NCBI RefSeq assembly: GCF_000196115.1
Contig: NC_005027.1
Span: 5,080,001 to 5,144,000, forward strand
Origin: Rhodopirellula baltica SH 1
GTDB taxonomy: Bacteria; Planctomycetota; Planctomycetia; Pirellulales; Pirellulaceae
Direction of reading: 5' to 3'
Length of the DNA stretch: 64,000 bases
Positions 17,222 through 38,041 of the stretch are shown piece after piece (position 1 is the first letter of the stretch; each line of letters opens with the position of its first letter). Both the position numbers and the translations under genes were made by a program. A model generated the notes under the pieces. The model was not told where the DNA came from and did no database searches. It saw nothing but the letters and a program-made list of their open reading frames with translations.

Positions 17222-17274
17222 TACAGCTTGGCTTGAAGACGATCAAAACCAATCGTCTTCGCCGAGCAAGTTGT

Positions 17275-18132
17275 TCAGTCCAAACGGCCCATTTTCCCGG
17301 CTTGGTAGTCAGCGATCGCAACACGGATTTCGTCACGCGTATTCATCACGAATGGCCCCTGCCCCACGACGGGCTCGCCCAGTGGTTCGCCGGTCATCAA
17401 TAAGACGCGGGATTCTGACTCCGCTTCTAAAACCACCTCGTCGCCGGATCGTTCCAACAAAGCCAGCTCGACCGCGTGAATCAAACTTTCGTTGACTTGG
17501 ACGCTTCCTTTTTGAACGATCACAACGCAGGTGTGCCCAGCGGGAACCGTCAGCGTGGCCGTTGCGTTTCCAGTGAGCTGAATGTCCCATAAATTGATGG
17601 GCGAAAACGTGCTGGCAGGCCCCTCCGCATCACCCAATTGACCCGCAATCACACGAACGATCCCCGCGTCGTTAGGCAACGAAAATCGAGGAAACTGTTC
17701 GTCACGCAGATCTTGATACTTCGGCGGTGCAGCCTTGTCCGTCGATCGCAGGTTCACCCATAGCTGGACCATCTCCAGCGTTCCGCCCTCCTTTGCGAAT
17801 CGTCGGCTGTGGAATTCTTCGTGAACCACGCCAGAGGCAGCGGTCATCCACTGCACATCGCCGGGGCCGATTGTGCCCTGACTGCCACTCGAATCTCGGT
17901 GTTCCAGTTCACCTTGATAGAGAATCGTGACAGTCTCGAAACCACGATGGGGATGCTCACCAACACCGCGCTTGGCTTCGTCAGGGGCAAAGTTGTGCGG
18001 ACCGGCATAGTCGAGCAACAAAAACGGGTCGAACTCATTGCCGCCGGCGTACGAAAACAAACTTCGAACCGGGAACCCATCGCCCACCCAGTGCTGAGGA
18101 ACGCCCCGAATGACTCGTTGAATCGATTTCAT
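17275..18132 (-). CDS. Pirin family protein
   Basis: A 285-residue bicupin. The four metal ligands of pirin are in place: H60 and H62 in HPHRGFETV, H104 in GVVHEEFHS, and E106. The N-terminal cupin is therefore expected to bind Fe(II). The C-terminal cupin (about 165-260) has no obvious metal set, as is usual. Bacterial pirins have been linked to quercetin dioxygenase activity and to redox or metabolic regulation; the role here is unknown. The gene lies immediately downstream of the 116-bp mobile element at 18216-18331, which may affect its promoter. Confidence 0.92.
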   Translation of the reverse strand: MKSIQRVIRGVPQHWVGDGFPVRSLFSYAGGNEFDPFLLLDYAGPHNFAPDEAKRGVGEHPHRGFETVTILYQGELEHRDSSGSQGTIGPGDVQWMTAASGVVHEEFHSRRFAKEGGTLEMVQLWVNLRSTDKAAPPKYQDLRDEQFPRFSLPNDAGIVRVIAGQLGDAEGPASTFSPINLWDIQLTGNATATLTVPAGHTCVVIVQKGSVQVNESLIHAVELALLERSGDEVVLEAESESRVLLMTGEPLGEPVVGQGPFVMNTRDEIRVAIADYQAGKMGRLD

Positions 18133-18215
18133 TGCACTTTGTCCCGCGTGAGAGTTCCGGTTTCCTCCCTTCTACGCGAGATCCGATGCGGCAACAAGCG
18201 TCCCGTTTTCCCTAA

Positions 18216-18331
18216 CAGGCTGTTGATTTAGTCGCATACCGAATGACAATCATTAGCCGTTGGGCGTTAGCCCCGGTTGGCGTCTAATCAACCGCCGCTA
18301 ACGCGGTGCGGCTCAATAAATCAACAGCCTG
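18216..18331. mobile_element. 116-bp MITE-like element, copy 1
   Basis: Perfect 15-bp terminal inverted repeats CAGGCTGTTGATTTA (18216-18230) and TAAATCAACAGCCTG (18317-18331) enclose 86 bases with no coding capacity. CTAA flanks both sides (18212-18215 and 18332-18335), which fits a 4-bp target duplication. The reverse complement matches copy 2 at 37874-37989 at 115 of 116 positions. The interior contains GC-rich quasi-palindromes that could fold into hairpins. A non-autonomous transposable element mobilised in trans is the most economical reading. No transposase is in the window. Confidence 0.85.
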
Positions 18332-18523
18332 CTAAGTGAAGTCACCTCGCTCGTTGCCCTCATCGTCGTATCGAATGAATGCGAAATACACAAACGACAC
18401 CGGCAAACATGGCAGCAAAAGCAGGTAGTACCACGAAACAAAGAACGCGAACGCGAAAATGATCGAGACAAAAATCATCCAAACGATTTTCGTGTCACGC
18501 CACAAACCTCGAAACTGTTCCAT
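18332..18523 (-). CDS. Small two-helix membrane protein
   Basis: A 63-residue protein with two adjacent hydrophobic segments (about 14-30 and 33-50) and charged ends (MEQFRGLWRD, YDDEGNERGDFT). The segments lie where membrane helices would be expected and the charge pattern is sensible, so it is probably real, although no family is recognised. Its TAG stop lies within the 4-bp CTAA duplication that borders the mobile element. The element therefore begins directly at the end of this gene without disrupting it. Confidence 0.55.
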   Translation of the reverse strand: MEQFRGLWRDTKIVWMIFVSIIFAFAFFVSWYYLLLLPCLPVSFVYFAFIRYDDEGNERGDFT

Positions 18524-19138
18524 CGATTCTCTTCGTGTGCTTGGCGTTGGTGGGGAGCTTCCGCCAGCGAGTCCGGCTGGTCTGCAATTCCGATGACCAA
18601 TTTGCCAAGGGCGACATCGGGCAGAACATCTCTTTTCTTACATTCAAATCGATTGCAAAACGACCGCGATCGCAGCAAAACGATCGACTCACCAATCAAC
18701 TGTGTCGCCGCAAAAACGATTCACGTCGAAACATTATGCCTCCCAATGACGATGTTGGGCATGCGTGGTCATTTGGATGCGACCTTCTGTCCCGACCTCA
18801 AAGCAAACCCTTCGGCCTCGGAACGAACACGTCAAACGTATTGCTAAATCAAGCCGGCAGCCGCCAACTTCCTCGCCAAGGTGTTGGCGAACAACAAACC
18901 GTGACGTCCCGATGGAATCGCAGAACACAGGGTCAGAACTTCGCAGCACCCCCCTGTATCCATGCGTGCGCGTTCGAAGTGATTGGGCAAATCGACCGGG
19001 TAAATCGACCGGTAAAAAATTCAATTTATCTTGCACAAAAACTCATCGAACCCAGTTGAACGAGCTGGGTGCTTCGCGAAGAATGACTCGGTTGCGAAAT
19101 GCAACCTTCTCCTTCCCGACTTCTTTCGGAGCCAACCG
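18524..19138. other. Long intergenic region with a short tandem repeat and a hairpin
   Basis: About 615 bases without a convincing gene. Open frames here lack any recognisable domain and have atypical composition. Just before sulfatase 1, AAATCGACCGG occurs twice with a 13-base period (18989-18999 and 19002-19012), followed by an A/T-rich stretch that could hold the promoter. A 6-bp hairpin ACCCAG (19050-19055) / CTGGGT (19065-19070) lies in the probable leader. Confidence 0.4.
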
Positions 19139-37864: not shown

Positions 37865-38041
37865 GTGGCATAGCAGGCTGTTGATGTATTGAGCCGCACC
37901 GCGTTAGCGGCGGTTGATTAGACGCCAACCGGGGCTAACGCCCAACGGCTAATGATTGTCATTCGGTATGCGACTAAATCAACAGCCTGATAGGCTTCCA
38001 GCCTGTGATTGCGAGGAACACAGGCAGGAAACCTATACCAC
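37865..38041. repeat. Palindromic repeat split by the mobile element
   Basis: Removing the 116-bp element and one copy of its ATAG duplication reconstructs a long palindrome. The left arm starts GTGGC at 37865-37869 and continues through 37990-38007. The right arm is 38019-38041. The arms are 23 bases each with three mismatches and an 11-base loop. This looks like an older REP-type hairpin into which the element inserted. Confidence 0.75.
37874..37989. mobile_element. 116-bp MITE-like element, copy 2
   Basis: It has the same length as copy 1 (18216-18331), lies in the opposite orientation, and differs only at position 13 (G instead of T in the left terminal repeat). The ends are CAGGCTGTTGATGTA (37874-37888) and TAAATCAACAGCCTG (37975-37989). 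It is flanked by ATAG at 37870-37873 and 37990-37993, a target duplication different from that of copy 1. This shows independent insertion rather than segmental duplication. Confidence 0.85.

Follow-up and report, generated by a model that had tools for sequence, protein, structure and literature searches.

The window, i.e. the whole stretch of 64,000 bp that was analysed (positions 5080001-5144000 of the 7,145,576-base single-contig genome of Rhodopirellula baltica SH 1), holds two almost identical short elements, and the question is what they are, what moved them and what lies between their ends. Copy 1 is found at 18216-18331 on the plus strand and copy 2 at 37874-37989 on the minus strand; both were recognised in the sequence and by genome search, are 116 bp long and belong to subfamily A as defined below. 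A sequence-only reading had described two copies in opposite orientation, differing at a single position, with 15-bp terminal inverted repeats (TIRs) and separate 4-bp duplications, and each of these statements was borne out. The one difference in 116 positions lies in a TIR of copy 2, giving one mismatch there, and the TIRs of copy 1 match perfectly (CAGGCTGTTGATTTA at 18216-18230, plus strand, and its partner at 18317-18331, minus strand; sequence and motif count). Copy 1 is bordered by CTAA at 18212-18215 and 18332-18335, the left one also recognised from an element-free site in R. europaea, and copy 2 by ATAG at 37870-37873 and 37990-37993 (all four in the plus-strand reading).

A 63-aa ORF on the minus strand (18332-18523) adjoins copy 1, which lies directly past the stop codon; judging from the alignment this stop is a TAG supplied by the right CTAA duplication, where R. 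europaea has TGA. In the mechanical ORF list, copy 2 is flanked by a convergent pair of long ORFs. The edge GGAAGCCTAT/GCCACTT, or a close form of it, of another, interspersed hairpin repeat (GGTTTCCTGCCTGTG...CACAGGCTGGAAGCC) is a shared MITE insertion point, found at window copy 2 (37990-38036) and in the flanks of L243, L232, L241, L240, L227 and L008.

The genome of R. baltica SH 1 contains at least 61 near-full copies, a lower bound because copies were read among the matches listed from two genome searches. Sixty are 116 bp long and one is 115 bp; at five loci (L018, L029, L246, L247 and L248) the match stopped 1-2 bases short of one end and was extended to 116 by position. Outside the 61 are a 243-bp composite, a single-ended remnant, two IS-interrupted copies and longer or diverged pairs. 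The 15-mer CAGGCTGTTGATTTA occurs 22 + 27 times in the genome and 0 + 0 times in the backward-read control, so the ends are not due to chance. An exact 4-bp target duplication, expected by chance in 1 of 256 per copy, flanks 41 of the 61 copies, and 54 have a duplication with at most one mismatch. The exact targets are TTAG (10), CTAG (10), CTAA (8), CTAT (5), ATAG (4), GTAG (2), TTAA (1) and CAAG (1); strict YTAR accounts for 29 of the 41, and a central TA is present in 40. Of the two central bases of the left flank, the first is T in 56 of the 61 copies and the second is A in 55. The copies are nearly identical, with 51 distinct sequences among 60 copies and 30 identical pairs out of 1770. 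Two subfamilies, separated by about eleven columns, can be distinguished: subfamily A, with the window copies, has symmetric ends CAGGCTG/CAGCCTG and subfamily B has ends CAGCCTG/CAGCCCG. Among 17 copies read in relatives 12 have exact duplications and 16 are within one mismatch. In viral contigs an 18-base end motif was found in 10 records, with two weak pairs only, neither of them MITE-like.

The family is thus short and non-coding, with many near-identical copies, TIRs and a constant 4-bp duplication. The earlier classification as a MITE is supported by the TIRs, by duplications at numerous loci, by the near-identity of the copies and by the empty counterpart of the copy 1 site in R. europaea 6C. 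That the family was recently active, as also proposed, would fit the near-identity and this empty site, and is less in keeping with the 20 of 61 copies that lack an exact duplication; the missing exact duplications in some MITE and IS copies are perhaps due to decay.

The insertion sites preferentially avoid long open frames: 30 of 58 lie inside a frame of at least 150 codons, compared with 334 of 348 control points, with frames taken as open reading frames and 58 of the 61 loci long enough for use. The nearest named relative found, R. europaea 6C (94% identity over the best segment of a 485-aa protein), lacks the element at the site of copy 1 and has there one target-like sequence, slightly diverged. 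This comparison covered 2 of the 61 copies, against R. europaea only. For copy 2 the region is rearranged in R. europaea 6C and a clean empty site was not found. The reverse comparison, for an R. europaea MITE near window position 17265, likewise gave no empty site, as synteny breaks there. By eye, some copies sit within REP cores, whose GCTAAC includes a YTAR target. A nested double insertion was seen at L027/L130 (G000:C1:4478701-4480217), where a single CTAG lies between a MITE and an IS701-like element and serves both, each of them having its own CTAG duplication.

A REPIN consists of two inverted REPs. The element has one REP at its positions 40-65 and another, inverted, at 74-98, and both contain AGCCG....GCGTTAGC; they lie in copy 1 as REP 1 (AGCCGTTGGGCGTTAGCCCCGGTTGG, 18255-18280, plus strand) and REP 2 (AGCCGCACCGCGTTAGCGGCGGTTG, 18289-18313, minus strand), and in copy 2, also by motif, as REP 2 (37892-37916, plus strand) and REP 1 (37925-37950, minus strand). 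The two REPs are separated by a short loop and the motif is over-represented, with 73 + 89 matches in R. baltica, many of them inside MITEs, against 2 + 1 in the control. Free relatives of the core are known, since REPs or REPINs without MITE ends are present in G002, G005, G008, G009 and G018, and as motif matches in G010. By sequence, the interior consists of paired inverted REP hairpins, which make up a REPIN, and is not a deleted IS. This interior, and the other REP pairs found behind the same ends in a relative, go beyond what had been noted from the window.

An alignment of 25 chosen copies contained some with the same ends and a different interior. End pairs were read, with no core required, in 2.06 Mb from three genomes (800 kb of G010, 400 kb of G018 and 864 kb of R. 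baltica), at a length of 60-300 bp and with a duplication within one mismatch; the R. baltica stretches, the second G010 set and the G018 set were chosen near known copies. This gave 62 end pairs (47 with exact duplications, 15 with one mismatch) and none in the same DNA read backwards. Each of the 62 contained an R1, R2 or R3 REP motif and no other core type was found; the labels allow up to 3 mismatches and a few could be wrong. R1 was found in 36 (29 in R. baltica, 4 in G010 and 3 in G018), R2 in 17 and R3 in 9, the latter two in G010 only. G010 alone therefore has three different REP pairs behind the same ends and at the same length (17 R2, 9 R3, 4 R1), and 53 of the 62 end pairs are 116-119 bp long. 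Comparing motifs outside and inside the pairs gave 24 and 47 for R2, 5 and 6 for R1 and 2 and 26 for R3 in G010, and for R1 8 and 31 in the R. baltica stretches and 20 and 6 in G018. R1 and R2, with centres GCGTTAGC and GCGTGAGC, may be distant relatives of each other. Ends and core are modular, and the same ends around three REP pairs in one relative suggest that the ends have captured or exchanged REP-dimer cores more than once.

The cores are also strongly palindromic. The interior inverted-repeat score, with any loop allowed, had a median of 18 in the 62 elements and 6 in 1240 random segments, and was above the control 95th percentile in 61 and above the 99th in 54. All 26 R2 and R3 cores score at least 20; one R1 core scores 8, which is not above the control 95th percentile. 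When the measure was restricted to tiny loops, none of the 62 exceeded the control 99th percentile. Fold energy alone separates less well, with 26 of 62 under the control 1st percentile and 42 under the 5th. The element itself folds with z -7.6 as RNA and -8.5 as DNA, which is strong, as is to be expected for a palindrome; covariation is weak (term 0.02) and lends no support to selection for folding, and no Rfam match was found in 18000-18600 of the window.

In G002 and G010, GTAG-tagged hairpins with the centre GCGTTAGC or GCGTGAGC, similar and not identical to the MITE REPs, are found on the sides of some Y1 genes, and the REPs therefore look like RAYT-associated REPs, though this is only suggestive. 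The R. baltica genome has 8 Y1 matches, and the R1 pattern is absent within 1.5 kb of all of them. Around 38 Y1 loci, which cover 123 kb, 50 motifs were counted, and three overlapping loci contribute 18 of these; the background is 0.23-0.31 per kb.

Two Y1 loci can be described separately. L285 (G002:C1:6430500-6443500) contains three tandem, near-identical Y1 genes, each flanked by GTAGCCATTGGCGTTAGCCAATGG, about 4.5 kb from the copy in G002 that matches the window MITE at 99% identity. At L258 (G010:C3:468802-469146) a Y1 gene has hairpins CCCCACGCGTGAGCGTGGGG on both sides after TTAG or GTAG, in a form close to the R2 core.

The sequence-only reading had supposed a transposase not present in the window and had suggested searching for an IS with the same ends. 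Such an IS, of about 1.47 kb, with MITE-like ends and target and an IS1182-like transposase, was found in relatives and not in R. baltica. In G006 a 453-aa transposase, found via PF01609 and containing the domains DUF772, DDE_Tnp_1 and DDE_Tnp_1_6, lies between the ends CAGCGTGTTGATTTT and CAGCCTGTTGATTTT at CTAA/CTAG. The best NCBIfam model is IS1182, with 188 bits and a cut-off of 270 that was not reached, and the family name is therefore approximate. Matches to this transposase were found in 17 of 60 genomes, several of them fragments. Of the 14 IS ends read at seven loci, 13 begin with CAGC and the other one with CCGC, the right end at L189 being visible over 9 bases only; the flanks are YTAR, and the duplications are exact at four loci and have one mismatch at three. 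All 15 bases of the subfamily B left TIR recur at one end of the G003 IS. G006 probably represents R. europaea 6C, since its MITE L032 has a flank identical to the end of L221, and this sister species is thus probably among the relatives that carry the IS. In the R. baltica genome a single-protein search gave no match to the partner transposase, and the best match of a profile of seven sequences had E 7.

Several other candidates were considered as helper and rejected. The R. baltica genome has 30 PF01609 matches, with no pair of MITE ends readable as IS ends. Two of them (L101 and L102) lie between MITE ends about 1.6 kb apart and are ISs inserted into MITEs, with their own ends GAATGGCACTTACTTT and a 10-bp duplication; the other 28 showed no readable end pair at IS spacing within 1.5 kb, allowing up to 3 mismatches. 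IS701-like PF13546 elements have the target class in common with the MITE and not the ends. An IS1380 transposase in G010 (L150) and an IS701-like transposase (L156) each have a single similar end, with no counterpart seen; that of L150 adjoins an R3-type MITE.

A 468-aa PF01609 IS with ends GAATGGCACTTACTTT lies inside the REP core of two MITEs (L073 and L074, G000:C1:2219300-2221900 and 2226200-2228900), with the 10-bp duplication GGCGTTAGCC. The other two copies found of this IS (L103 and L104) are also in hairpins, CTCGGGG...CCCCGAG, and it seems to target hairpins (four of four copies).

The elements could be ordinary MITEs formed by internal deletion of an IS, with an incidental REP-like interior. 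Their ends and target are those of an IS, and the usual description of MITEs in bacteria likens them to degenerated ISs (PMC3733652). This origin is nevertheless improbable, since by eye the likeness to the IS does not extend beyond about 15 bp of ends, the core is a REP dimer whose relatives also occur without the ends, and three REP motifs, and no other core type, were found behind the ends in 62 elements. The resident IS701-like element (447 aa, 9 copies) also uses YTAR targets, shares the 4-bp target class and is nested with a MITE at one CTAG, but its ends, TACTACAGCGCTAA, are unlike CAGGCTGTTGATTTA, and it is very improbable that it moves the MITE.

The REP dimer in the core, the 8 Y1 matches in the genome and the GTAG-tagged hairpins with GCGTTAGC or GCGTGAGC centres beside some Y1 genes in G002 and G010 would also agree with transposition of a REPIN by a RAYT, a Y1 tyrosine transposase, the outer repeats being part of a larger REPIN. 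RAYT mobilisation is, however, not known to produce target duplications, and 41 of the 61 copies have an exact one; moreover, the ends match a DDE IS, the R1 pattern was found at none of the 8 R. baltica Y1 loci within 1.5 kb and the motif density at the 38 Y1 loci is barely over background. Spread of the 116-bp unit by a RAYT is contradicted by the duplications and can be regarded as highly improbable; it is possible that a RAYT acted on the core before or after its capture. Alternatively, the host could have domesticated and spread a non-mobile intergenic RNA or terminator element, a reading that has the strong fold (z -7.6 as RNA, -8.5 as DNA), the bias against long frames and the position of copy 1 right after a stop codon in its favour. 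It is hardly credible given the target duplications, the empty site and the lack of an Rfam match, and the folding is expected from the palindrome itself.

Very probably, then, the elements form part of a large MITE family of marine planctomycetes that an IS1182-like transposase moves in trans and whose ends have captured or exchanged REP-dimer cores. The non-autonomous element of 116 bp, with its 15-bp TIRs, would enter TA-centred, mostly YTAR, sites of 4 bp and duplicate them. The DDE transposase of the IS1182-like IS would bind the MITE ends and move the element in trans, and in R. baltica this helper may have been lost or have been no more than a visitor. The exchange or capture of cores would have taken place more than once. 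As a guess, a foldable core may bring ends just 116 bp apart together within the transposase complex, or may render the insert harmless between genes. A tentative and rather unlikely extension is that the REP-dimer core is a working part of the transposon, which folds or extrudes and so brings together the ends of a unit of about 11 helical turns that is too short and stiff for looping. If true, this would explain the acceptance of different, nearly always palindromic cores (61 of 62) of near-constant length, and the fusion of MITE and REPIN would offer REP hairpins in general a second way to spread, driven by a DDE transposase.

In the open-access literature, mainly titles and abstracts, no description of the element was found for Rhodopirellula or planctomycetes, nor under IS1182 or REPs with MITEs. 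Nezha, NEMIS and RUP are examples of bacterial MITEs (PMC3733652). The present family resembles them in being short and non-coding, with TIRs, and in depending, as it appears, on a TIR-recognising transposase that acts in trans; it differs in that the core is an exchangeable REP dimer, with three cores per end kind, and in its nearly invariant length. The origin of bacterial MITEs and the reason for their shortness are open questions that are touched by this family, in which one end kind, three hairpin pairs in one genome and a near-constant length form a natural experiment on the minimal interior of a transposon. With IS1182-like/DUF772 DDE insertion sequences the MITE has the ends CAGCCTGTTGATTT and the YTAR target in common, but as far as seen only the ends are shared, and the transposase was undetected in R. 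baltica.

The core is likewise built as in REPINs, with two inverted REPs and a short loop, but is here wrapped in DDE-transposon ends with target duplications. REPINs are the subject of Bertels and Rainey 2011 (PMC3116915). The closest precedent found are the REPs regularly embedded in a larger palindrome described by Di Nocera et al. 2013 (PMC3733652), with REP dimers inside palindromes in A. variabilis and H. neapolitanus and small palindromes in T. roseum; its passages on these mention neither duplications nor a matching IS nor exchangeable cores. The same source lists R. baltica as holding several REP families, and the REPs of the MITE cores may be among these. IS elements that target REPs are also known (PMC1525189), and similarly some MITE copies lie in REP cores, whose GCTAAC holds YTAR, but here the REPs are also cargo. 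The family links REPINs to MITEs, repeat classes that are usually treated apart, and two kinds of genomic parasite appear to be fused in one unit.
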